Under the pieces are notes generated by a model, which saw only the letters and a program-made list of their open reading frames with translations, did no database searches and was not told where the DNA came from. From Erysipelotrichaceae bacterium (lineage in GTDB: Bacteria; Bacillota_I; Bacilli_A; Erysipelotrichales; Erysipelotrichaceae), in the NCBI GenBank assembly GCA_030694975.1, contig JAUYTU010000018.1, forward strand, positions 62,001 through 126,000: a stretch of DNA of 64,000 nucleotides, in the 5' to 3' direction. Shown here one piece after another: positions 388-63,530 of the stretch (position 1 is the first letter of the stretch; every line of letters starts with the position of its first letter). The position numbers and the translations under genes were made by a program.

Positions 388-813
388 CTACTTATTCGCC
401 ATCAGCACTGCAATTTTCTGTAACAGCAACTGATATCCTTGTTGGGCATCTTCTACATCAACGACGGTTTGTTCCATCGGACACAGACCGTTTTTTTCAT
501 TATTCTTGATATAGGCAACAGTTCGGTCATAACTGAAATCAATGGTTTGATTGGATAAAAATTGCAAGGCATTTTCACTGATAATCGGGGTGTAGAGTTT
601 TTTAATCTTAGCAACGACCATTAGCATCGCTGCCGCTTTTCCTACCACTTTGTCAACCACCACACCATCCTCAAGCAACTCTGGATTTTCGCGAAGCCAT
701 TTGATCCACGGTCGTATTCCCTTCAGATTGGAAGTCAACACATGATCGCCTTTACTGACGACACAGACGATATCATCCGTATTCAATAATGATTTCATTT
801 CTTCAATGTTCAT
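388..813 (-). CDS. DUF1893 family protein (TM1506-like)
   Basis: A 141-residue soluble protein of the usual length for DUF1893. The conserved core VVDKVVGKAAAMLMV lies near residues 75-90, and a single Cys occurs in the GLCPME segment near residue 110. The family has a cytidine-deaminase-like fold known from structure, but its function is not established. It lies downstream of fabF on the same strand but has its own consensus promoter, so it need not be part of the lipid operon. The start is the first ATG and has only a weak GAGGG ribosome binding site. Confidence 0.75.
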   Translation of the reverse strand: MNIEEMKSLLNTDDIVCVVSKGDHVLTSNLKGIRPWIKWLRENPELLEDGVVVDKVVGKAAAMLMVVAKIKKLYTPIISENALQFLSNQTIDFSYDRTVAYIKNNEKNGLCPMEQTVVDVEDAQQGYQLLLQKIAVLMANK

Positions 814-882: not shown

Positions 883-2112
883 TTATTCATGAATCCATTT
901 CTTAACAATCAATGAAACATTGTGCCCGCCAAACCCAAGATTATTACACATGGCATAATGGATGTCAGAATTTCGTTTCACCGTGATGACATCAAGATCG
1001 CATTGAGGATCTTGATTTACCAGATGAATGGTCGGTGGTAACCAACCAGTTAACAGTGATTTAATACAAAATATAGTTTCAACAGCTCCGCAGGCTCCTA
1101 AAAGATGTCCGATGTGAGACTTCGTTGAGGAAACCGGTACCCGATAGGATTGAAAGACTTGGTTGATTGCGATGGATTCCGTTTTGTCATTAAGCGGTGT
1201 CGAAGTACCATGAGCATTGATATAACCGATATTTTCACATGATATCTTTGCTTCCTCAAGTGCAATATTCATGGCCTTAACGATGCCCGCCCCATCTTCA
1301 CTAGGTGCTGTCATATGATAAGCATCACAGGCACTGCCGTATCCCACGATTTCCGCATATATTTCAGCATTACGATTTAGGGCATGTTCAAGCTCTTCGA
1401 CGATGAGTGCTCCGGCACCTTCGCCCATCACAAATCCGGAACGATCAACATCGAAAGGAATACTCGCGCGCTGGATATCGGAGCTTTCATTGAGGGCTCG
1501 CATAGCCATAAAGCCACCGACGCCTAAGGGTGTAATCGATGCTTCACTGGCTCCGGCAATCATCAGATCTTGTTGACCGTATTTGATGCGATGGAAAGCC
1601 TCACCAATTGAACTTGTTCCGGCAGCACATCCGGTCACCACACACGAACACTCGCCCATTGCCTGATGATCAATGGCAACGATGCCTGCCGCAAGGTTGA
1701 CGAGGGTCATGGGTATAAAAAACGGCGATACCCGACTGACACCTTTGGTAATCATATTTTCCATGGCTCTTTCAAAGGAGCCGATACCGCCGATACCGGT
1801 CGACATAATGACGCCAAAGCGGTCTTTATTGATTACATCAATGTTCAAATGTGAATGTTGTATGGCTATTTTTGATGCGATACGCGCAAATTGAGTATAG
1901 CGGTCATTGAATTTCAGCTCACGCGCACTGAAAAAATCTTCCATGATTAAATCGTTGACTTGTGCCGCTAATTTTACTTTATAGTCGGATAAATCAAAGG
2001 ATGTGATGGGGTGGATTGCGCAATCCCCTTGAAGTATACGATCATATACCTGATCCACATCATGTCCCAACGGTGTAACCAAGCCCATTCCAGTAATTAC
2101 GACTCTTCGCAT
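883..2112 (-). CDS. fabF: 3-oxoacyl-[ACP] synthase II
   Basis: This is the elongating beta-ketoacyl-ACP synthase of type II fatty-acid synthesis, which condenses malonyl-ACP with an acyl chain. At 409 residues it has normal family length. The catalytic triad is visible: Cys162 in VVTGCAAGTSS, one His in NAHGTSTPLND (about residue 300) and the other in KSHIGHLLGA (about residue 337). The start is preceded by AGGAGG at good spacing. It is the last gene of the acpP-accB-accCD-accA-fabF operon, 10 bp after accA. Cytosolic. No fabD, fabG, fabH or fabZ is in the window, so the rest of the cycle must be encoded elsewhere. Confidence 0.96.
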   Translation of the reverse strand: MRRVVITGMGLVTPLGHDVDQVYDRILQGDCAIHPITSFDLSDYKVKLAAQVNDLIMEDFFSARELKFNDRYTQFARIASKIAIQHSHLNIDVINKDRFGVIMSTGIGGIGSFERAMENMITKGVSRVSPFFIPMTLVNLAAGIVAIDHQAMGECSCVVTGCAAGTSSIGEAFHRIKYGQQDLMIAGASEASITPLGVGGFMAMRALNESSDIQRASIPFDVDRSGFVMGEGAGALIVEELEHALNRNAEIYAEIVGYGSACDAYHMTAPSEDGAGIVKAMNIALEEAKISCENIGYINAHGTSTPLNDKTESIAINQVFQSYRVPVSSTKSHIGHLLGACGAVETIFCIKSLLTGWLPPTIHLVNQDPQCDLDVITVKRNSDIHYAMCNNLGFGGHNVSLIVKKWIHE

Positions 2113-2122
2113 TTTTGCCTCC

Positions 2123-2938
2123 TCATTCGATGGTTCCGATTTGACGGAATTTCTGATAGCGGTGTTCTAATAATTCATCGGTGGTCATGGCTGAGAATTT
2201 GTCCAAATAGGATTGAATCGTTTTCTTGCATTGATCCGCGACTTTATCCAGATCCATATGAGAGCCAATCAGCGTCTCTTCAATGATCTCATCAACGATT
2301 CCTTGTTCAAATAGATCGGCGGCGGTAAGTTTGATGATTTCTGCGGCAAGAGGTGCTTTGCTTTCATCTTTCCATAAGATACTGGCAAAACCTTCGGGGG
2401 ATAATACGGAGTATATAGAGTTTTCCAGCATGATGATGGCATCCGCAACACTGAGCGCCAAAGCCCCGCCGCTGCCACCTTCAGAAAGTACCAAAGCGAT
2501 GATGGGAACCCGAAGGGAAGAGAATAGTTGCAGGCATTGGGCGATGGCTGTGGCTTGTCCGCGTTGTTCTGCTTGTGGTCCGGGGTAGGCTCCGGGAGTA
2601 TCAATCAAAGTCAGTATTGGTCGATTGAACTTCTGTGCCTGCATTGCCAGACGCATGGCCTTGCGATAGCCTTCAGGATGCATCATCCCAAAGTTGGACT
2701 TACGATTTTCATCGGCATTACGACCTTTGTTTTGGGCTAAAACGGTTATTGGTTTTCCCTGAAAATAGCCGATTCCTGCAAGCAGTGCCGGATCATCACC
2801 AAAGACGCGATCACCTTTGATTTCAATGAAACCATCGATCAGCCTTGGCAGAAAATCAATGGCTTTGGGACGGTTGGGATGTCTTGCCCGTGCAACCCGA
2901 TCCCAAGCATTGACGTAAGGTCGTACGTGTTCATTCAT
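2123..2938 (-). CDS. accA: Acetyl-CoA carboxylase carboxyltransferase subunit alpha
   Basis: AccA forms the carboxyltransferase with AccD and moves the carboxyl group from biotin to acetyl-CoA, giving malonyl-CoA. The 271-residue protein shows the GDRVFGDDPALLAGIG segment near residues 43-58, LIDTPGAYPG near 110, and the oxyanion-hole region SEGGSGGALAL near 150. It is shorter than the roughly 320-residue E. coli AccA because it lacks the N-terminal helical extension, as is common in Bacillota. Its ATG overlaps the accC-accD stop by 8 nt, indicating translational coupling and presumably matched amounts. Confidence 0.95.
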   Translation of the reverse strand: MNEHVRPYVNAWDRVARARHPNRPKAIDFLPRLIDGFIEIKGDRVFGDDPALLAGIGYFQGKPITVLAQNKGRNADENRKSNFGMMHPEGYRKAMRLAMQAQKFNRPILTLIDTPGAYPGPQAEQRGQATAIAQCLQLFSSLRVPIIALVLSEGGSGGALALSVADAIIMLENSIYSVLSPEGFASILWKDESKAPLAAEIIKLTAADLFEQGIVDEIIEETLIGSHMDLDKVADQCKKTIQSYLDKFSAMTTDELLEHRYQKFRQIGTIE

Positions 2939-5063
2939 ATGATTCCCTCCGATGCATATTTAACAGATTTGAAAGTGTCTTCTTCAGATTCCGGCGATCG
3001 ACAATCATGTCCAAAAAGCCGTGCTCCAGTAAATATTCAGCGGTTTGAAATTCTTCCGGTAGAGTTTCTTTGATGGTTTTCTCAATCACCCGTTTACCCG
3101 CAAAGCCGATCAGAGCTTTTGGTTCACTGATCAGGATATCAGCCAACATCGCAAAGCTAGCTGTGACACCGCCGGTGGTTGGGTCGGTAAATACGGAAAT
3201 GGTGAGTCCGCCGGTTTGATCAAAACGGTTAAGAGCAGCGGCTGTTTTGGCCATTTGCATTAAGGAGATGATGCCTTCTTGCATGCGTGCACCTCCCGAT
3301 GCACAGATGATAATCAGCGGACAGCTCATGTCCAAGGCTGTTTCGATCAGTCGGGTAATCTTATCACCAACCACATGACCCATGCTTCCCATCATAAAGG
3401 AAGCATCCAACACAGCGATACACACGGTGTGACCGCCAAGTTTACCAAGTCCGCAGATGACGGCCTCGTTGAGTCCGGTGGCGGTCTTCGCAATTTTGAG
3501 TTTTTCTTCATATCCCAAAAAAGCATTATATTTAGTACTTTGAGCATGTGCATCAATCTCAACGAATGAATCCGAATCCATCAAATCTGCGACACGCCGG
3601 GTCGCGCTTAATCGAAAGTGATGTCTGCAGTATTCACATACATTTTGATGTTCGCTTAGCTGCTTGGACAAAAGAGGATGTTGGCATTGCGGGCAAACAG
3701 AAATGCTATTTTGCTGATTTTTGTCTTTGTCTTGCCACTGGGCAAATGTATGTTCAAACAGTTCGCTGGTATAGTTTCCTTTGGTGAAACCATCACCATG
3801 AAGAGTATAGCGCAAGAAATCAAGGTTGGTACCCATCCCTTCAATGGATGTCTGATTCAATGCCTCTTTCAGATGGAGCAACGCTTGCTCGCGGGTATTG
3901 CCCCACCCAATCACTTTTGCGATCAGCGAATCGTAATGTACGGGTACACTGTAACCTTCAAAAAGCGCGGTATCGATACGCACATGATTTAATTTCGGAA
4001 AGGTAACTTTCGTTATAATACCTGCTGAGGGTAACAATCCATTTTTATCATCCTGTGCATTGATCCGACATTCAATCGCATATCCGTTGATTTGAATGTC
4101 CTCTTGTTTAAATGAAATTGGGATACCGTTAGCCGCTAGAATCTGTTGCTCAACGATGTCAATGCCGGTTATCATTTCAGAAAGTGGATGTTCCACTTGG
4201 ATTCTTGGATTGATTTCCATAAAATATACTTTGTCATCGCTATCCAGTAAAAACTCAAAGGTAGCAACATTGTTAAGGTGGATATGTTTAGCGATCATTA
4301 AGGCATAATCAAGGACCAATCTGTGCGTCATCGGATCAATCGAAGAGAAAGGAGCTTCCTCGATAAACTTTTGAAAATGGGATTGAAGTGTGCAGTTACG
4401 ACTGGATAAATGAACCACATTCTGATGTTGATCCGCTAATATCTGTACTTCAATGTGTCGACTTTCAGCAATGTACTTTTCTAAGGTAAGAGCTAGGTAT
4501 CCTTGCGATTGAAGGCGTTTTAACACGGTTTCAAGTTCATGTTCTTGGTTTACGATACAAACGCCTCGTCCTCCGCCACCGACGGCAGGTTTGACGATCA
4601 GCGGATAACCGATGAGCGCAGCACTTAAAAGGGCAGACTCCATGTTGTCAATAGAGTTGAAATCACCTTCAATGACCGGAATTGAAAGGGAAGAAACAAT
4701 TTTTTTTAGCGAATTCTTATGACTTATGTGCTGAAGAACCGTGGAATCAGGACCGATAAAGATCAATCCGCAGTCTTCCACTCGTTTGGCAAATGTTGCA
4801 CTTTCACTTAGAAAACCATACCCGGGGTGCAAAGCATCGCAATGAGTGAGCATCGCAGCTTCACACAGATGGTCCATATTCATATAACTAAGTGCAGCCA
4901 CATCCGGCCCGATACATACGGATTCATCCGCAAGTTTAACAGCCGGTGATTCTTTATCACATAAGGAATAAGCGACTACCGTTTGGATGCCCATTTTTTT
5001 GCACGTTGAAAGAATGCGCAACGCAATTTCACCGCGGTTAGCAATCAGACATTTGTTAATCAT
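2931..5063 (-). CDS. accC-accD: Fused biotin carboxylase / carboxyltransferase beta (AccC-AccD)
   Basis: One uninterrupted 710-residue frame carries two acetyl-CoA carboxylase subunits that are normally separate. Residues 1 to about 440 are biotin carboxylase: MINKCLIANRGEIALRIL at the N-terminus, the ATP-grasp loop GGGGRGV, and the EINPRIQVEHPLSE catalytic segment. A linker of about 15 polar residues follows. Residues 457-710 are AccD, with its CPQC...CEYC zinc ribbon and the crotonase-like core ASGGARMQEG and TGGVTASFAML. The start chosen is the ATG at 5063, because upstream in-frame Met codons lie inside accB and the protein family begins at MINK. It overlaps accB by 8 nt. Both halves keep their key residues, so this looks like a working fusion rather than a decayed gene. 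Confidence 0.93.
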   Translation of the reverse strand: MINKCLIANRGEIALRILSTCKKMGIQTVVAYSLCDKESPAVKLADESVCIGPDVAALSYMNMDHLCEAAMLTHCDALHPGYGFLSESATFAKRVEDCGLIFIGPDSTVLQHISHKNSLKKIVSSLSIPVIEGDFNSIDNMESALLSAALIGYPLIVKPAVGGGGRGVCIVNQEHELETVLKRLQSQGYLALTLEKYIAESRHIEVQILADQHQNVVHLSSRNCTLQSHFQKFIEEAPFSSIDPMTHRLVLDYALMIAKHIHLNNVATFEFLLDSDDKVYFMEINPRIQVEHPLSEMITGIDIVEQQILAANGIPISFKQEDIQINGYAIECRINAQDDKNGLLPSAGIITKVTFPKLNHVRIDTALFEGYSVPVHYDSLIAKVIGWGNTREQALLHLKEALNQTSIEGMGTNLDFLRYTLHGDGFTKGNYTSELFEHTFAQWQDKDKNQQNSISVCPQCQHPLLSKQLSEHQNVCEYCRHHFRLSATRRVADLMDSDSFVEIDAHAQSTKYNAFLGYEEKLKIAKTATGLNEAVICGLGKLGGHTVCIAVLDASFMMGSMGHVVGDKITRLIETALDMSCPLIIICASGGARMQEGIISLMQMAKTAAALNRFDQTGGLTISVFTDPTTGGVTASFAMLADILISEPKALIGFAGKRVIEKTIKETLPEEFQTAEYLLEHGFLDMIVDRRNLKKTLSNLLNMHRRESYE

Positions 5064-5466
5064 GGCAACGGATACAAATGATGGGCTGATGATATTCCAC
5101 CATACCGCCATCGTCAACGTTGATATGAGTGATGACACCATCAAAAGGTGCTTTGATTTCATTGAACACTTTCATCGTTTCAATGACACAAAGAATTTCG
5201 TTCTTTTTAACATATTTTCCAACGGTGACTAACGGTTCGCAATCTTGGGTCATTCGGATATAAAAAGTTCCGACCAAGGGTGAATGGATCCAATGCGATT
5301 CACCGCTGGGTCGCAGTTCTTTCAACTCTTTTTGTGAAATTGAAGAACTGACCGGTTCAAGCGGTTTTTGCATGGAAATCTTCATTTTTCCGATGGTGAT
5401 TTCAAGCTGTTGAAGCGATGATTGCTCAAAAGTCTTGATAAGTCTGTTGATTTTTCTGATCTTCAC
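5056..5466 (-). CDS. accB: Biotin carboxyl carrier protein of acetyl-CoA carboxylase
   Basis: A 136-residue carrier that swings biotin between biotin carboxylase and carboxyltransferase. The biotinyl domain occupies about residues 58-134. The biotin-accepting Lys is K99 in VIETMKVFNEI; family members usually have EAMKM, so the Ala-to-Thr and Met-to-Val changes are mild. An N-terminal helix and a Ser/Pro-rich linker precede it, as in other bacterial AccB. The start is GTG, preceded by a run of seven G (5471-5477) that must serve as the ribosome binding site. It lies 21 bp after acpP and overlaps the AccC-AccD start. Confidence 0.94.
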   Translation of the reverse strand: MKIRKINRLIKTFEQSSLQQLEITIGKMKISMQKPLEPVSSSISQKELKELRPSGESHWIHSPLVGTFYIRMTQDCEPLVTVGKYVKKNEILCVIETMKVFNEIKAPFDGVITHINVDDGGMVEYHQPIICIRCHD

Positions 5467-5487: not shown

Positions 5488-5718
5488 TTAGCTCTTTGTC
5501 TTTGATTCAATAGCAAAAACGACATCTTGAAATGTTCTCAAATCCTTTAATTCTTCGTTGTGAAACTGAATATCAAATTCACCTTCAAGTTCAAGGATGA
5601 GTTCTAAAGTGGTCAGTGAATCCAATAATAAATCTTCTTTCAATCGTGCATTCAAGGTCAGACGATTTCTGTCAATCTGCGTAACTTCGCTAAATACCTG
5701 TCTGATTTTATCGATCAT
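5488..5718 (-). CDS. acpP: Acyl carrier protein
   Basis: A 76-residue acidic carrier of normal ACP length. The phosphopantetheine-accepting serine is S34 in LLLDSLTTLEL (the family's DSL motif). The start is the ATG at 5718, which has AAGGAGG at good spacing; a longer upstream frame lacks one. It is the first gene of the acetyl-CoA carboxylase/fabF operon, so the operon pairs the acyl carrier with malonyl-CoA supply and the condensing enzyme. I could not find a convincing -35/-10 pair in the divergent gap to the CAP gene. Confidence 0.94.
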   Translation of the reverse strand: MIDKIRQVFSEVTQIDRNRLTLNARLKEDLLLDSLTTLELILELEGEFDIQFHNEELKDLRTFQDVVFAIESKTKS

Positions 5719-5874
5719 ACGGCCTCCTTGGCTGATATTATGAGATTGTTTGTCAAGTTGATAATAAATTGATATTGTCTGCATTTTTTCTTACTCTCAT
5801 TCTATCCTTTTTGTAATTCCATTTCAATGACTCAATTACCAAAGGTGAATATTGGCGGATGGTAAAAAAATTCA

Positions 5875-7250: not shown

Positions 7251-8797
7251 TGATAGAAAAAAATCAAAAAGAAATTGAACTAAAAAATCTGACGCAGACG
7301 TTGGTATCGATTGGTTCAGTCGTTAACAGCGAAGGTGAAAAGGTTTTGGCTGATAAGATTTTTGAGATCTTATCCGGTTTTGAGGTATTCAAAAGAAATC
7401 CCGAACACTTGCGAATTTGTCCGGTCAAAGACGACTCACTTCATCGATATTCCATTATAGCGTTAGTTAAAAAATCGGATGTATCGAACACCCTTTTGGG
7501 AATCGGTCATTTTGACACGGTCGGTATTGAGGATTATGGTGATTTGAAGCCTTTTGCCCTTGATTCTGAAGAGCTTCCGGTTCAAATGAAGAAGAATATG
7601 GCTGATTTAGAAGTACAACATGACTTGGATGATCCGGATTATCTGTTTGGTCGAGGAACATTGGACATGAAAAGCGGAATCGCTATTTGGCTGACATTGC
7701 TCCATGATGTGTCCTTAGCATCTTCCGATAAGAATCTGTTGGTTTGTTTGGTGTGTGATGAAGAAGGAAATTCGAAGGGAATGATCGATGCAATTCCATA
7801 TATTCAACAGATGAAGGACGATTTTCATTTGGATATACTTTCAGCGATCGATACGGACTATACCTCCCCTCAGTTTACGGGTGATACGCGCAAGTTTTTA
7901 TATGGAGGCACCATCGGGAAAATCTTGGTTCAGTATCTGTGCATCGGGAAAGAAGCGCATGCCGGTGACCCCTATGCCGGTATCGATGCCAATCAACTGG
8001 TCAGTGCGTTGATTGAAGAAATCAATATGAATCCAACGTATTGTGATGAGAATAAATTGGATGTTACCGTACCACCGATCACATTGACAGTTAAAGACGA
8101 TAAACAACAATATTCCGTTCAAACAGCCAAAACCGCTTCCGTTGCTTTCAATGTTACGACTCTTGGTCGAAGTATTGAACGGTGGGAAGAGATGTTTATC
8201 AAAGCCGCACAGAAAGCTATGGACCATGTCATTGATAAGCTTAATAAAAGTTATCGGGAATATACGGGATTAAAGGGTATTGATTACGTGCCACTTCCAT
8301 GGAAGGTGAATGTAAACACCTTTCAAATGGATTCAATTGTTAATCTTTCATTGGAGGTAAATGAGGACGAACGCGACTTCAGCTTACGGTGGGTGAAGCA
8401 ACAGTATCTAAGTTATCCACATCCTCAAATCGTGCTGTTTTTGTCCATGCCATACTATCCCCACCACACCTTGGATACAAACAATCCAAAACATCGGCAG
8501 TTTATTTCTGACATTCAGCGATGTGCACTTGGCTATACGTTTTTACCCTACTATCCCTACATTTCTGATTTAAGTTTTGTCAGTCGAGCAAATCCAATGG
8601 ATGTATCAGCGATTCGACGTTTAATTCCCGGATATGATAAACTCAATCGCATCGATTGGCCGACGTTGGATATGCTTGATATCCCGATGATCAATATCGG
8701 ACCATGGGGAAAAGATGCCCATAAATTCACGGAAAGAGTGCATGTTCCTTCGATTTATTCGGTATACGTGATTTTATTTAACTACTTACTCATGTGA
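7250..8797 (+). CDS. M20 family metallopeptidase, RocB-like
   Basis: A 515-residue cytosolic hydrolase of the M20/M25/M40 zinc peptidase family, closest in layout to RocB of arginine-utilization loci. Metal-site motifs are visible: GHFDTVG near residue 86, the GRGTLDMKSG segment near 134 and CDEEGNSKG near 168. The dimerisation domain follows, with the AHAGDPYAGIDAN segment. RocB is long for an M20 enzyme and this protein shares that length. Substrate is not predictable. Its ATG shares a base with the stop of the CAP gene, an unusual coupling between a surface protein and a cytosolic peptidase. Confidence 0.8.
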   Translation: MIEKNQKEIELKNLTQTLVSIGSVVNSEGEKVLADKIFEILSGFEVFKRNPEHLRICPVKDDSLHRYSIIALVKKSDVSNTLLGIGHFDTVGIEDYGDLKPFALDSEELPVQMKKNMADLEVQHDLDDPDYLFGRGTLDMKSGIAIWLTLLHDVSLASSDKNLLVCLVCDEEGNSKGMIDAIPYIQQMKDDFHLDILSAIDTDYTSPQFTGDTRKFLYGGTIGKILVQYLCIGKEAHAGDPYAGIDANQLVSALIEEINMNPTYCDENKLDVTVPPITLTVKDDKQQYSVQTAKTASVAFNVTTLGRSIERWEEMFIKAAQKAMDHVIDKLNKSYREYTGLKGIDYVPLPWKVNVNTFQMDSIVNLSLEVNEDERDFSLRWVKQQYLSYPHPQIVLFLSMPYYPHHTLDTNNPKHRQFISDIQRCALGYTFLPYYPYISDLSFVSRANPMDVSAIRRLIPGYDKLNRIDWPTLDMLDIPMINIGPWGKDAHKFTERVHVPSIYSVYVILFNYLLM

Positions 8798-27970: not shown

Positions 27971-28187
27971 CTGTCAAGTCACTGTCGAACCAACCAACGA
28001 TGATTCTTTGGTTATTCAGATTGAAAGTGTCGTGAAAGCACGTTTTGGCAAGCAAATCGAAATGGCTGTGATGGACACATGTAAGCAACTCGAACTTGTG
28101 GGAGCTACTGTCTTTGTCGATGATAAAGGTGCGCTTGATTTTACAATCAAAGCACGCGTAGAAACGGCGGTGAAGCGCAGCTTATGA
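27918..28187 (+). CDS. citD: Citrate lyase acyl carrier protein (gamma subunit)
   Basis: An 89-residue carrier of the citrate lyase complex. The prosthetic-group Ser is S16 in TKTGIAGTLESNDCQVTV; the family motif is G-T-x-E-S-S/N-D. It lacks the DSL motif of fatty-acid ACP. The start has GGAGG six bases upstream; a second Met directly follows, so the start could be one codon later. It overlaps citXG (53 nt) and citE (4 nt). Confidence 0.95.
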   Translation: MMNRPTKTGIAGTLESNDCQVTVEPTNDDSLVIQIESVVKARFGKQIEMAVMDTCKQLELVGATVFVDDKGALDFTIKARVETAVKRSL

Positions 28188-29035
28188 GTATTCGCTCTGC
28201 TCTTTTTGTGCCCGGCAATTCCGCGGCTATGGTCTTAAGTTCGCCGATATTGGATGCGGATGCGATCATTTTGGATTGTGAAGATGCCATTGCGATGGCT
28301 TCGAAGGATAGTGCATCTCTTTTAATAAAACATACGCTCATGCAATTACCGCGACGTCAGAAAGAATTCTGGGTTCGGATCAATCCGTTGGGCAGTGATT
28401 TTTTTGTAGATGATTTAAACAATATATTGCCATCACTACCTGATGCGCTGTTGATCCCGAAAGCGGATGGGGATAATTGGGATGAAATCATTGCTTCGAT
28501 TGAGAAAGTGGAGAATAAATTTGATCTTATTCCTGTAGATTTGATTGCGCTGATCGAAAGTGCGAAGGGCGTAATGACTTGTGAGAAACTTGCACGTCAT
28601 CCGCGTACAAAGGGGTTTTTGTTGGGTGGGGAAGACTTTGCTTCAGATATGGGTATTGCCCGTCGTGAGGATAATAGGGAGTTGCTCTTTTCGAGATATC
28701 AGGTCGTGACGTGGGCAAAAGCGTTTAAATTGCTTTGCTTGGACACACCGTACACCGACATCGACAATCTCGAGGGATTTAAGTTGGATTGCGAATTTTC
28801 TGCGTCCATCGGTTTTGACGGTAAGGCGTGTATTCATCCGCTTCAGGCAGAAGTGGCAAATGTTGTATATTCGGTCAGCGATGATCAAATCAGGTGGGCG
28901 AAAGAAGTGTTGGATGAAACCAAGAAGCAAAGTGTCGGTGTGTTTTCTTTTAAGGGAAAGATGATCGATCGACCCGTTATTATGAGAGCGGAGCAGACCA
29001 TTGAAAAAGCGAAGAAATGGGGGTTGTTGCGATGA
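28184..29035 (+). CDS. citE: Citrate lyase subunit beta (citryl-ACP lyase)
   Basis: A 283-residue TIM-barrel subunit that splits citryl-ACP into oxaloacetate and acetyl-ACP. Visible motifs: SALFVPGNS at the N-terminus, DAIILDCEDAI (Mg-binding Asp/Glu, about 24-34), the Arg in FWVRINPL, LIALIESAKGV, GGEDFASDMG and KACIHPLQ near 218. Overlaps both neighbours by 4 nt. Confidence 0.96.
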   Translation: MSIRSALFVPGNSAAMVLSSPILDADAIILDCEDAIAMASKDSASLLIKHTLMQLPRRQKEFWVRINPLGSDFFVDDLNNILPSLPDALLIPKADGDNWDEIIASIEKVENKFDLIPVDLIALIESAKGVMTCEKLARHPRTKGFLLGGEDFASDMGIARREDNRELLFSRYQVVTWAKAFKLLCLDTPYTDIDNLEGFKLDCEFSASIGFDGKACIHPLQAEVANVVYSVSDDQIRWAKEVLDETKKQSVGVFSFKGKMIDRPVIMRAEQTIEKAKKWGLLR

Positions 29036-30531
29036 GATATGAACCGAAATTACCCTATCAATATATTGAAAGTTATGAGCCGCGGACGTATCAGGAGAAT
29101 AAGACTTCACGAGTGAATCACGAAGTCAGAAAAGTTGAAGATATGGATCAGCTCTTTGATATGATTCAATTGAAAGATGGCATGACGATATCCTTCCATC
29201 ATCATTTGCGCAACGGCGATGCGGTGATGAATCTGATTATGGATGAGATTATCAAACGAAATCTCAGAGATATCACCGTGGCCGCATCGTCGGTGTTTCC
29301 CATCCATACATCCTTGGCTACGGCCATCGAACGTGGTGTTGTAACACAAGTCGTGGCAGCCTATATGTCCGGTGCAGTGGCGGATGTGGTGAGTAAAGGG
29401 AAGTGTCTTTATCCATGCGTCATGCAGACCCATGGCGGTAGAGCGTTGAGTATTGAATCCGGTAAACTGAAGATCGATGTGGCATTTATTGCTTCTCCGG
29501 CGATGGATAAGTCCGGCAATATCAGCGGACGTCAGGGTAAGGCAGCGTGTGGATCGTTGGGTTATGCGATTGCGGATGCCCATTATGCGGAGATGGTTGT
29601 GGCGATTACGGATACGATTGAGCCGTTGAATGCTTTCGATATACCGAAAGAATGTGTGGATGTGATGCTTCACGTGGATTCTATTGGGGATCCAAAGGGG
29701 ATTGTTTCCGGGACGACGCGTATAACCAAAGATCCGGTCGGATTAGCCATTGCTAAGCGCACCATTGAATTGATGGATGCGGTTGGATATATCAAAGACG
29801 GTTTGAGCTTTCAGACGGGTGCCGGAGGGATTTCGTTGGCGGTTGCGGCTCAGTTGCATCAGAAGTTAAGTCAAAATAAAATCAAGGGTTCATTTGCTTC
29901 CGGAGGTATTACCGGTTATCTTGTTGATATGTTTGAGGAAGGTCTGTTTGAGAAGTTATACGATGTGCAATGCTTTGATTTAGCTGCAGTTGCTTCGATT
30001 CAAAAGAATGAGAATCATTTTGCGATCAGTGCATCCCAATATGGCAATCCCTATAATCCAAAGAACATTGTTGATCAATTGGATGTGGTGATTCTAGGTG
30101 CATCGGAAATCGACTTGAATTTTAATGTCAATGTGACGACCGGCTTTGATCATCGGATCTTGGGTGGTTCTGGCGGACATGCGGATACGGCCTTCGGCAG
30201 TAAGTTTGCGATCATCGTATCTAAATTGGTGAGTTCGCGGATTTCGGTGGTGGTTGATCAGGTGACGACGATTACAACGCCGGGTCAAACGATAGATGCC
30301 TTAGTGACGGATTATGGCATTGCTATTCATCCGCGTCATAGTGAACTAATTGAGCAATTGAAAAAAACCACGCGGTTATCGGTGGTTTCGATGAAGGAAT
30401 TGTTGGATACGGCCAATGAGTTGTGCGGTTTACCACAGTCTGTGTTGCCACAAGAGAAAATCGTGGCACTGATGGAGTACCGGGATCTGAGTGTGATTGA
30501 TGTGATCCGTCAGAGTGAGATTCCGTTGTAA
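29032..30531 (+). CDS. citF: Citrate lyase subunit alpha (citrate:acetyl-ACP transferase)
   Basis: A 499-residue CoA-transferase-like subunit that exchanges citrate for acetate on the acyl carrier. HHHLRNGDAVMNL near residue 62 and FQTGAGGISLAVAAQ near 263 mark the family. The start is the ATG at 29032, overlapping the citE stop; the earlier Met in the frame lies inside citE. Its last 22 bases overlap the 3' end of the convergent GntR gene. Confidence 0.96.
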   Translation: MRYEPKLPYQYIESYEPRTYQENKTSRVNHEVRKVEDMDQLFDMIQLKDGMTISFHHHLRNGDAVMNLIMDEIIKRNLRDITVAASSVFPIHTSLATAIERGVVTQVVAAYMSGAVADVVSKGKCLYPCVMQTHGGRALSIESGKLKIDVAFIASPAMDKSGNISGRQGKAACGSLGYAIADAHYAEMVVAITDTIEPLNAFDIPKECVDVMLHVDSIGDPKGIVSGTTRITKDPVGLAIAKRTIELMDAVGYIKDGLSFQTGAGGISLAVAAQLHQKLSQNKIKGSFASGGITGYLVDMFEEGLFEKLYDVQCFDLAAVASIQKNENHFAISASQYGNPYNPKNIVDQLDVVILGASEIDLNFNVNVTTGFDHRILGGSGGHADTAFGSKFAIIVSKLVSSRISVVVDQVTTITTPGQTIDALVTDYGIAIHPRHSELIEQLKKTTRLSVVSMKELLDTANELCGLPQSVLPQEKIVALMEYRDLSVIDVIRQSEIPL

Positions 30532-60097: not shown

Positions 60098-61105
60098 TTA
60101 GGACAAATGCAGGATTTTTTGAAGCTCTTCTTTTAATTTCGGTAAAATCAGTACGGCATCACCAACGATGCCGACGTGAGCGATTTGAAAGATTGCGGCA
60201 TTGGGATCACTGTTGATAGCAATGATGCACTCTGCTTTATCCATTCCCGCCGTATGCTGGACCGCTCCGGAAATTCCACAAGCTATATAGACCAATGGAC
60301 GAACTGTTTTGCCGGTCTGACCGACTTGTACATCTTTGCCAACAATGCCGGTTTCAACCAAACCACGGGAAGCACCGACTTCCGCGTTCAATACTTTCGC
60401 AAAGTCTTTGATTAAATCTAGATGCTTTGCCATCGAACGTCCGGCCGATACGATGATACGAGCCTTAGCGATGTCATTTGTTTTTGCCTGTTGAACTTCT
60501 CTTTTTAAAATTTCAACCCAGTCAACTTCATCGAATGTCGTCTCAAACACAACAACGTCACCGGCTTGTGCTTCAATTTCAGTTTTCTCAAACACATTGG
60601 GACGAATGGTCGCCATTTGCGGACGGAAATTCGGACACACGATCGTACCAAACAGATTACCGCCAAAAGCCGGACGAGTAACCAAAAGCAGAGAAGTATC
60701 GGAGGTCATATCCACTTCAATGATCGTAGCGTCGGCGGTTAAACCCGTGTCGACACGCGCCGCAACACGCGGTGCGATGTCACGTCCGATGACGGTAGCA
60801 CCAATCAGGAAACTGTCCGGAGCAAAGGCGCGGATAATATCGCTCAGAGCTTTGGACGTATGTTGGGTCGTGGCTTCTTTGAGTTTTTCATCTTGGCACA
60901 GAATAACTTTGTCAGCACCATAATTAAACAGAACGGATGTCAGATTTTCAACCTGATAGCCCGGTAAAACGGCGACCACATCGTGATTCATGCCTTTTTG
61001 AACGTATTGAGCCTTAAGTTTACGTGCTTCGCTTAATAACTGAAGACTGACCTCAGCGATAACGTTATTGCGTGTTTCGATAAACACGAAGATATCTTTT
61101 GTCAT
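60098..61105 (-). CDS. etfA: Electron transfer flavoprotein subunit alpha
   Basis: A 335-residue FAD-binding subunit. The N-terminal domain (about 1-190) includes GRDIAPRVAARVDTGLTADAT. The C-terminal FAD domain has VSAGRSM, GASRGLVETG, QVGQTGKTVRPLVYIACGISGAVQH and AINSDPNAAIF. With EtfB it passes electrons to or from the acyl-CoA dehydrogenase encoded upstream; in anaerobes such complexes can bifurcate electrons from NADH to ferredoxin and crotonyl-CoA. Whether this one does is not decided by sequence reading alone. Confidence 0.95.
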   Translation of the reverse strand: MTKDIFVFIETRNNVIAEVSLQLLSEARKLKAQYVQKGMNHDVVAVLPGYQVENLTSVLFNYGADKVILCQDEKLKEATTQHTSKALSDIIRAFAPDSFLIGATVIGRDIAPRVAARVDTGLTADATIIEVDMTSDTSLLLVTRPAFGGNLFGTIVCPNFRPQMATIRPNVFEKTEIEAQAGDVVVFETTFDEVDWVEILKREVQQAKTNDIAKARIIVSAGRSMAKHLDLIKDFAKVLNAEVGASRGLVETGIVGKDVQVGQTGKTVRPLVYIACGISGAVQHTAGMDKAECIIAINSDPNAAIFQIAHVGIVGDAVLILPKLKEELQKILHLS

Positions 61106-61116
61106 TGAATTTCTCC

Positions 61117-61896
61117 TTACTGAATATACGGAGCTAATGTGCTCAGTATCGCTTTTACAGCTTCATCACTACCGCCGTGAATCAGTTTGACTTCACTGGA
61201 CACCGGACGGGTAAAGGTCTTACGAACTTGTGTCGGTGAACCTTTAAGACCGATATCCTTAGCTTCTAACATCAATATTTGATTATTAACCATTTCGATC
61301 GGTTTATCGAAGGCTTCCCAACAGGAAGTAACATTCATAAAACGCAGATGATCCAATTGTTCCAAGGTGGTTAATAGGCAAGGGAAGCTGACTTTCAATG
61401 TCTCATCGAAATCTTCATAGTGCTTCTTAACGACAATGTAATCCGATGTGACTTCAACGATCTTACTGACATAGGTGATTTGGGGAATGTTCAGGCGCTC
61501 TGCGACTTGCGGTCCAACTTGAGCCGTATCGCCGTCAATGGCTTGACGTCCGGCAAAAATCAAATCCGGTTGAACTCTTTTAATGGCAGCGGCCAATGTA
61601 TTGGAGGTTGCCCATGTATCCGCACCGGCGAAAGCTGGGTCACTGATTAAAATTGCATGATCGACACCGCGTCCATAGCATTCTCTGAGCATGTTGGCTG
61701 CTTGCGGAGGTCCCATCGTGATGACGACAACTTCGGCACCATTGGACTTCTTGATTTTCAAAGCAGCTTCTAAAGCGCTGGTATCATCGGGGTTCATGAT
61801 TGAATCAACACCGTCACGAATCAGTGTTCCGGTCTCCTTGTCAATCAACATTTCCGTAGTATTGGGTACTTGTTTCATTAGTACGACGATTTTCAT
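61117..61896 (-). CDS. etfB: Electron transfer flavoprotein subunit beta
   Basis: A 259-residue subunit. KIVVLMKQVPNTTE at the N-terminus, INPDD-like SIMNPDDTSALEAAL near 34, and the FAD/AMP-binding AGRQAIDGDTAQVGPQVAE near 119 are typical. It lies 11 bp before etfA and 4 bp after the dehydrogenase gene, so the three are co-transcribed. Confidence 0.95.
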   Translation of the reverse strand: MKIVVLMKQVPNTTEMLIDKETGTLIRDGVDSIMNPDDTSALEAALKIKKSNGAEVVVITMGPPQAANMLRECYGRGVDHAILISDPAFAGADTWATSNTLAAAIKRVQPDLIFAGRQAIDGDTAQVGPQVAERLNIPQITYVSKIVEVTSDYIVVKKHYEDFDETLKVSFPCLLTTLEQLDHLRFMNVTSCWEAFDKPIEMVNNQILMLEAKDIGLKGSPTQVRKTFTRPVSSEVKLIHGGSDEAVKAILSTLAPYIQ

Positions 61897-61900
61897 TGTG

Positions 61901-63028
61901 TTACCTCAAGACCGAAGCGCTGATGACCATGCGTTGAACTTCGGATGTTCCTTCATAAATTTCAGTAATTTTGGCATCACGCATCATACGTTCTACCGGA
62001 TATTCACGGGTGTAACCATAACCACCGTATAACTGTACGGCCATCGTCGTCACGCTCATTGCGGTTTCCGATGCAAACAGCTTAGCCATCGCAGCTTCGG
62101 TCGAAAAACTCTTCTGTGTATCTTTGGCAACTGCAGCTCTATAGACCAAACAACGGGCTGCTTCGATTTGCGTAGCCATATCGGCTAATTTAAATTGCGT
62201 ATTTTGAAATTGACTGATGGATCGATTGAACTGTTTGCGGCTTTTTGTATAGGCGACCACTTCGTCCAAGGCTCCTTGAGCAATTCCCAGCGCTTGAGCT
62301 GCGATTCCGATACGTCCGCCATCAAGCGTTGACATGGCAATACCAAAGCCTTTACCCTCAGCGCCTAAACGGTTTTCAACCGGCACTTTCACGCGGTCAA
62401 ACATGAGTTCACACGTACTTGACCCGCGAATACCAAGTTTCTTTTCTTTTTTACCAACCGAAAATCCTGGCATATCTTTTTCAAGAATAAAGGCGGTAAT
62501 ACCTTTGGTGCCTTTGGAAATATCGGTCATAGCAAAGATAATATAAATATCGGCATATCCGGCATTGGTGATAAAGATTTTTGAGCCGGTGATTTCATAA
62601 TAACCGTCTTTAAGAATAGCGGTGGTTTTTTGTCCGGCCGCATCAGTTCCGGCGTTGGGTTCTGTTAATGCAAATGCCCCTAATTTTTCGCCTTTATTCA
62701 AAGGGACAAGATATTTCTGTTTTTGTTCTTCCGTACCATACGCATAAATCGGATGAGCTCCAAGAGATGTATGCGCGGACAAAATAACGCCGGTAGTTGC
62801 ACAGGCTTTGCTCAATTCTTCAACCGCAAGTACATAAGCCAGCGTATCCGCACCACTTCCGCCATATTTAGCAGGGAAGGGGATGCCCATCATTTTGGCA
62901 TTGACCATTTCCTTAACGGTTTCCACCGGAAACTCTTCTTCTTCATCGGTATATGCGGCAATCGGACGCACGATTTCCGTAGTAAACTGTTGATACAGTT
63001 TCTTTAATAACAAATGTTTTTCGTTCAT
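61901..63028 (-). CDS. Short-chain acyl-CoA dehydrogenase (butyryl-CoA dehydrogenase-like)
   Basis: A 375-residue FAD enzyme. [15 protein letters not shown] near residue 119 and [13 protein letters not shown] near 148 are family signatures; [21 protein letters not shown] near 226 and the catalytic Glu in [16 protein letters not shown] near 357 match butyryl-CoA dehydrogenase (Bcd). It probably reduces crotonyl-CoA-like substrates with EtfAB as partner. It lies 6 bp after maoC. The other butyrate genes (thl, hbd, but/ptb-buk) are not in the window. Confidence 0.93.
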
Positions 63029-63034
63029 AATTCC

Positions 63035-63457
63035 TCAATTCCTCGGTGGCATAACTTCAGCAATGCCGGTAATGACCATATCACCATTTTGATTAAATGC
63101 GGTAGTTTCAAGTTTGACGCGGTTTTTCTCTTCGTCTTTTTCCACGACCGTTACTTTAGCAGTAATAGTATCATTTAGATAGACAGGTTTTAAATACTTG
63201 ATGGATTGTCCCAGATAAATCGTACCTTCACCAGGTAGATCTGTTCCTAATATTGCGGAGAATAATGAAGCAATCAAATGTCCGTGACAAATGCGCTGTT
63301 TGAAGCGGGTAGCCGCCGCATATTCTTCGTTAAGATGAACGGGATTGTGATCGCCGCTTACTTCAGCGAAGCTTTCAACCTCAACGGATGTAAACATTTT
63401 CGTAAACTCTGCACTTTGACCGATGGTCAACTGTTGAATCGTTTTTCCTTGTTGCAT
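63035..63457 (-). CDS. MaoC-like (R)-specific enoyl-CoA hydratase
   Basis: A 140-residue hot-dog-fold enzyme. The hydratase-2 motif is complete: AEVSGDHNPVHLNEEYA near residue 32 (catalytic Asp and His) and RFKQRICHGHLIASLF near 53. It hydrates enoyl-CoA to the (R)-3-hydroxy form or runs in reverse. It is first in the operon with the acyl-CoA dehydrogenase and Etf, in the place where clostridial butyrate operons have crotonase. The ATG at 63457 has AAGGAGGT; the longer upstream frame starts within the promoter. Confidence 0.9.
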   Translation of the reverse strand: MQQGKTIQQLTIGQSAEFTKMFTSVEVESFAEVSGDHNPVHLNEEYAAATRFKQRICHGHLIASLFSAILGTDLPGEGTIYLGQSIKYLKPVYLNDTITAKVTVVEKDEEKNRVKLETTAFNQNGDMVITGIAEVMPPRN

Positions 63458-63494
63458 AGCAACCTCCTTAGAATGTGAATGACTCTTCATGTTT

Positions 63495-63530
63495 AATTTA
63501 TAGTATTGTGAACAAATTGTCAAGACAATT
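63495..63530 (-). promoter_or_regulatory. Promoter and operator of the maoC-acyl-CoA dehydrogenase-Etf operon
   Basis: On the minus strand a perfect TTGACA (63518-63523) and TAAATT (63495-63500) are 17 bp apart. The inverted repeat AATTGTC-AA-GACAATT (63515-63530) covers the -35 box, so a repressor bound there would block the promoter. The regulator is not identifiable. Confidence 0.75.

Follow-up and report, generated by a model that had tools for sequence, protein, structure and literature searches.

Sequence analysis of a 64,000-nucleotide stretch of DNA from an Erysipelotrichaceae bacterium (the window; positions 62,001 to 126,000 of contig JAUYTU010000018.1) raised the question whether biotin carboxylase (BC, AccC) and the carboxyltransferase beta subunit (CT-beta, AccD) are genuinely encoded as one polypeptide at this locus, and, if so, what such a protein would do for the cell. 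On the minus strand a single frame runs from an ATG at 5063 to a stop at 2931 and comprises 710 codons plus the stop, in which AccC is joined to AccD (Table 1), as the preliminary description had claimed. The domains of both enzymes are matched in this frame, with the Pfam families Biotin_carb_N at residues 1-109, CPSase_L_D2 at 116-316, Biotin_carb_C at 331-437, and Carboxyl_trans at 489-671, and with the NCBIfam accD model TIGR00515 at residues 445-706 (355 bits; cut-off 317). The linker, previously estimated at about 15 residues with a junction near 3695-3740, measures 13 residues and ends where the first zinc cysteine codon of the CT half starts, at 3695. The first approximately 32 residues of AccD, its N-terminal extension, are absent from the fused protein, and its 710 residues hold only BC and CT-beta; BCCP, complete CT, BT or central domains are not present. 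An alternative, longer frame reaches 5162, but begins inside accB2; the ATG at 5063 leaves an 8-nt overlap with the end of accB2.

Table 1. Coordinates of the fused gene, its neighbours and associated elements within the window.
Feature	Position	Strand	Characteristics
DUF1893 (TM1506) protein gene	388..813	(-)	Downstream of fabF2; syntenic; operon membership uncertain
fabF2, beta-ketoacyl-ACP synthase II	883..2112	(-)	TIGR03150, 541 bits (cut-off 494)
accA2, carboxyltransferase alpha	2123..2938	(-)	PF03255; NF004344 over cut-off
accCD fusion	2931..5063	(-)	BC, residues 1-443; 13-aa linker; AccD carboxyltransferase beta, 457-710
AccCD linker QDKDKNQQNSISV	3696..3734	(-)	Residues 444-456, between BC and first zinc cysteine codon
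accB2, biotin carboxyl carrier protein	5056..5466	(-)	Biotinylation motif ETMKV
acp2, acyl carrier protein	5488..5718	(-)	DSL site; AAGGAGG ahead of the ATG at 5718
Predicted sigma-70-type promoter, TTGAAA-17-TAGAAT	5799..5827	(-)	Upstream of acp2

The genome is a 42-contig assembly, and an assembly or sequencing error that erased a stop or shifted the frame at the junction could produce the appearance of a fusion. This explanation is considered extremely improbable, as a stop-free join with differing linkers is present in five of the seven genomes searched in the genus, the four other proteins being 74, 69, 68, and 62% identical to that of the window; the frame is open in all five, without stop or frameshift at the junction, which excludes chance or sequencing error. 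The two remaining genomes of the genus, each 79% complete, gave no fusion match, a tentative absence. Among the 315 genomes searched in the order, the fusion was found in none of the other 310, and no other fusion without a stop was detected in samples of the class (395 genomes) and the phylum (392 genomes). A six-frame scan of the loci identified single-frame fusions at the window locus and its genus relatives only. In the GTDB genome contigs, the best 80 loci included only two fusions, in uncultured Erysipelotrichaceae OKU21 (L057, the same place as G097) and in Firmicutes bacterium HGW-Firmicutes-10 (L058, the same place as G093). The 10 plasmid records among the matches listed all covered most of the query, each in two pieces, and a candidate further fusion, a partial match in G042, covers just the beginning of AccC where a contig ends, next to ordinary ACP and AccB genes. 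Full-length matches elsewhere (g106, g87, several Clostridia, and L131) were rejected as fusions, with in-frame accC and accD parted by one or two stops. Within the order, class, phylum, and GTDB-contig searches made, the fusion is restricted to one Erysipelotrichaceae genus, and all single chains recovered form one tree clade, with full support and a long branch.

Internal re-initiation at the BC/CT junction was rejected as well: the fused homologues share no conserved start codon with an accompanying ribosome site around the junction and the linker sequences differ, which makes production of a separate AccD by this route unlikely. A direct consequence of the fusion is that each CT-beta chain comes with one BC, in line with the proposed 1:1 ratio; the shape of the complex may, as suggested, differ too. 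The observation that both halves retain their active-site motifs was likewise borne out by the BC catalytic residues and the Cys4 zinc ribbon. The five fused proteins all retain the 14 BC catalytic positions that were checked, numbered according to the Pseudomonas aeruginosa enzyme (K116, K159, H209, E211, Q233, K238, E276, E288, N290, R292, Q294, V295, E296, and R338), which are also invariant across 106 comparison BCs (105 once one fragment of the fused gene in that set is excluded). In the CT half, 56 of the 57 positions with at least 95% conservation are kept in all five proteins. Every fused protein has other residues in place of the R234-R235-H236 triplet that directly precedes Q237-K238, and a conserved stretch is five residues shorter near position 188-193, so the kinetics of the BC half may be changed; A160P, M289I, and T291P are further changes at positions not known as catalytic. 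An inactive BC was considered, as visual inspection suggested degradation ahead of K238, and rejected, since the catalytic residues are kept and position 236 varies in ordinary BCs. An AlphaFold model of AccCD has a mean pLDDT of 82.8 with a well-folded BC part, whose TM-score against solved BCs is about 0.9 by target length, and the first 50 Foldseek matches to the model are biotin carboxylases and related carboxylases. Confidence is low at residues 450-453 and in parts of the CT half, which is modelled with lower confidence; CT-beta normally pairs with AccA.

The fused gene is the third in a minus-strand series, acp2-accB2-accCD-accA2-fabF2 (operon 2), in which adjacent genes overlap or almost touch; accA2 shares 8 nt with the end of accCD. 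AccB2 scores above the Pfam cut-off and carries the lysine motif, while its TIGR00531 score of 102.5 bits lies below the cut-off of 115.2. The promoter upstream of acp2 is aligned and largely conserved in five genomes, and the DUF1893 gene has a separate, good promoter match at 866-838. The surroundings are the same in four genomes (G000, which contains the window, G097, G007, and G095), with lipB, lipoyl protein, SDR, LarC-like, and ECF genes on one flank and SCP-like, M20, LytS/LytR, and CstA genes on the other. In locus L017 (7397-10360), the conserved cluster of lipB, a small lipoyl-domain protein, SDR, LarC-like, and ECF transporter genes converges on operon 2. Elsewhere in the window, inspection by eye recognized citrate lyase genes resembling CitE and CitF with, after them, a GntR-type regulator and malic enzyme (28184-30531), and a series encoding EtfA, EtfB, acyl-CoA dehydrogenase, and a MaoC-like hydratase (60098-63523).

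The preliminary description had implied a single, rearranged acetyl-CoA carboxylase, of which the fusion stands and the notion of a sole set does not: the fusion as the only acetyl-CoA carboxylase of the cell was rejected, because contig C37 of the same genome carries a complete set of separate AccB, AccC, AccD, and AccA. These genes belong to a full fatty-acid operon (operon 1) that follows birA, in the order ACP, AccB, AccC, AccD, AccA, FabH, two FabK-like reductases, FabD, FabG, and FabF, the genes from FabH to FabF being named by eye from the sequence and FabH being confirmed by family. In G097, FabZ-like and PlsC-like genes come next. FabH, FabK, FabD, and FabG are not in operon 2, and the proteins of the two operons share 38-59% identity; in view of the shared genes in identical order, operon 2 has the appearance of a divergent copy in which the first genes and FabF were retained. 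Genome-wide, the ACP-type domains number only three and no FabH-type match is stronger than that of the main operon, so no second full pathway is evident. A perfect palindrome, CTTTGATATTCAAAG, is located at the promoter of the main operon (L016, about 8090-8104; G000:C37:80089-80103) and also occurs in G097; it resembles FabT-type sites and does not appear upstream of operon 2. The palindrome CTTTGANNNTCAAAG was rejected as a regulon marker, since other perfect copies are found at unrelated genes.

Both operon 1 and most of the family members that were read have accC and accD overlapping by approximately 20 nt in different frames, so that a small indel together with loss of the extension would suffice to join them. 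Such a frame change, with loss of the approximately 32-residue N-terminal stretch of AccD, would be the simplest route to the fusion. Moreover, in some genera accC and accD already share a frame, interrupted by one or two stops, which makes fusion mechanically easy. A same-frame arrangement with a single intervening stop was observed in L137-L141, L071, L073, L078, and L131 (two stops in L140). Constraining the fused clade to group only with three copies of the genus itself cost 19.3 log units (p-AU 0.10), and a constraint uniting the fused proteins, the genus's own copies (OWN_G062 added), and two sister genomes cost 0.04 log units (p-AU 0.515). Neither grouping is rejected; the tree comparisons permit a duplication within the lineage without proving it. 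In the tree, the AccC of L083 (8001-10194), from a contig labelled Muribaculum (Bacteroidota), closely neighbours the one from Acetatifactor L081 (Lachnospiraceae); this contig is probably mis-binned.

Operon 2 changes faster than the housekeeping set. The housekeeping AccC of G000 and that of G097 share 98% identity, the fused BC halves 72%; for the remainder of operon 2 the identities are 80% (CT half), 86% (AccA2), 87% (FabF2), 64% (AccB2), and 72% (ACP2). AccB2 and ACP2 evolve fastest. This acceleration, and the two 79% complete genomes without a match, would fit a relaxed, decaying duplicate that stays open by chance without useful function. Such decay is improbable, as all five operon-2 genes are intact in four species despite near-saturated silent sites, the catalytic residues are invariant, the promoter is conserved, and dN/dS between G000 and G097 ranges from 0.06 to 0.21, values that are only rough because dS is close to saturation. 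As judged from these substitution patterns, operon 2 is less constrained than the housekeeping set but still under purifying selection.

The reading that we favour, with a probability of roughly 0.7, is that AccCD, AccB2, and AccA2 form a second active acetyl-CoA carboxylase, derived from a diverged copy of the fatty-acid operon in which accC became joined to accD. Its most likely role would be auxiliary, with an ACP and a condensing enzyme of its own and the remaining steps provided by the main pathway. In this scheme, the BC half of AccCD, tied 1:1 to CT-beta, would carboxylate the biotin on AccB2, which would hand the carboxyl group to a CT centre built from the fused CT-beta half and AccA2; malonyl-CoA would thus be generated beside the dedicated ACP2 and the condensing enzyme FabF2, and the FabD, FabG, FabZ, and FabK steps would be supplied from the main operon.

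Alternatively, the enzyme could be a specialised carboxylase that acts on another acyl-CoA, provides malonyl-CoA for octanoyl or lipoyl synthesis under specific conditions, or represents an inhibitor-insensitive version of the main enzyme. The ACP and FabF that travel with AccCD, the altered RRH segment, the syntenic lipB, lipoyl-domain protein, and SDR neighbours, and a promoter region without the ACTTTGATATTCAAAGT palindrome seen at the main operon are consistent with this possibility. It is nonetheless rather unlikely: the invariant CT positions match ordinary AccD, the lipB genes sit on the opposite strand and may be unrelated, and the function of the palindrome is unproven, with other exact copies at unrelated genes. 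Similarly doubtful is a lineage-specific, dedicated module for malonyl-CoA supply and condensation, in which the joined BC and CT-beta would serve the module's own ACP and FabF, with a new holoenzyme architecture and a product distinct from bulk membrane lipid, such as a precursor for lipoyl groups or an unusual acyl chain.

The favoured second carboxylase resembles the heteromeric bacterial enzyme in that all four components are present, with AccB2 and AccA2 separate, and in its B-C-D-A gene order, catalytic residues, and zinc ribbon. It differs in that AccC and AccD, two of the four polypeptides of that enzyme, share one chain, in that AccD is without its N-terminal extension, and in that the set exists beside a normal one; because of the shared chain, it is called a variant rather than a plain member of this type. 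Subunit fusions known from other bacteria include AccBC (BC with BCCP) and AccDA (beta with alpha CT), which likewise join adjacent acetyl-CoA carboxylase subunits, whereas the pair joined here is BC with CT-beta. Multidomain bacterial acyl-CoA carboxylases of another design, Saccharopolyspora SACE_4237 and the LCC type, have been described (PMC6491548). AccCD shares with these the combination of BC and CT activities in one chain; their chain holds BCCP and a complete CT together with a BT or central domain, whereas here CT-alpha and BCCP are separate and BT and central domains are lacking. In the open-access literature that was searched, no named AccC-AccD fusion was found.

The fusion is real and conserved, yet a variation on a familiar enzyme. 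It represents a pair that is absent from the literature searched and that probably arose where accC and accD overlap. The multi-subunit acetyl-CoA carboxylase of bacteria tends to dissociate during purification; a natural BC-CT-beta fusion, which fixes one connection and the ratio, offers a manageable sample and limits how far apart BC and CT can be placed in the holoenzyme. Finally, it exemplifies an apparent duplicate operon that is free to vary while the normal set meets the essential need.
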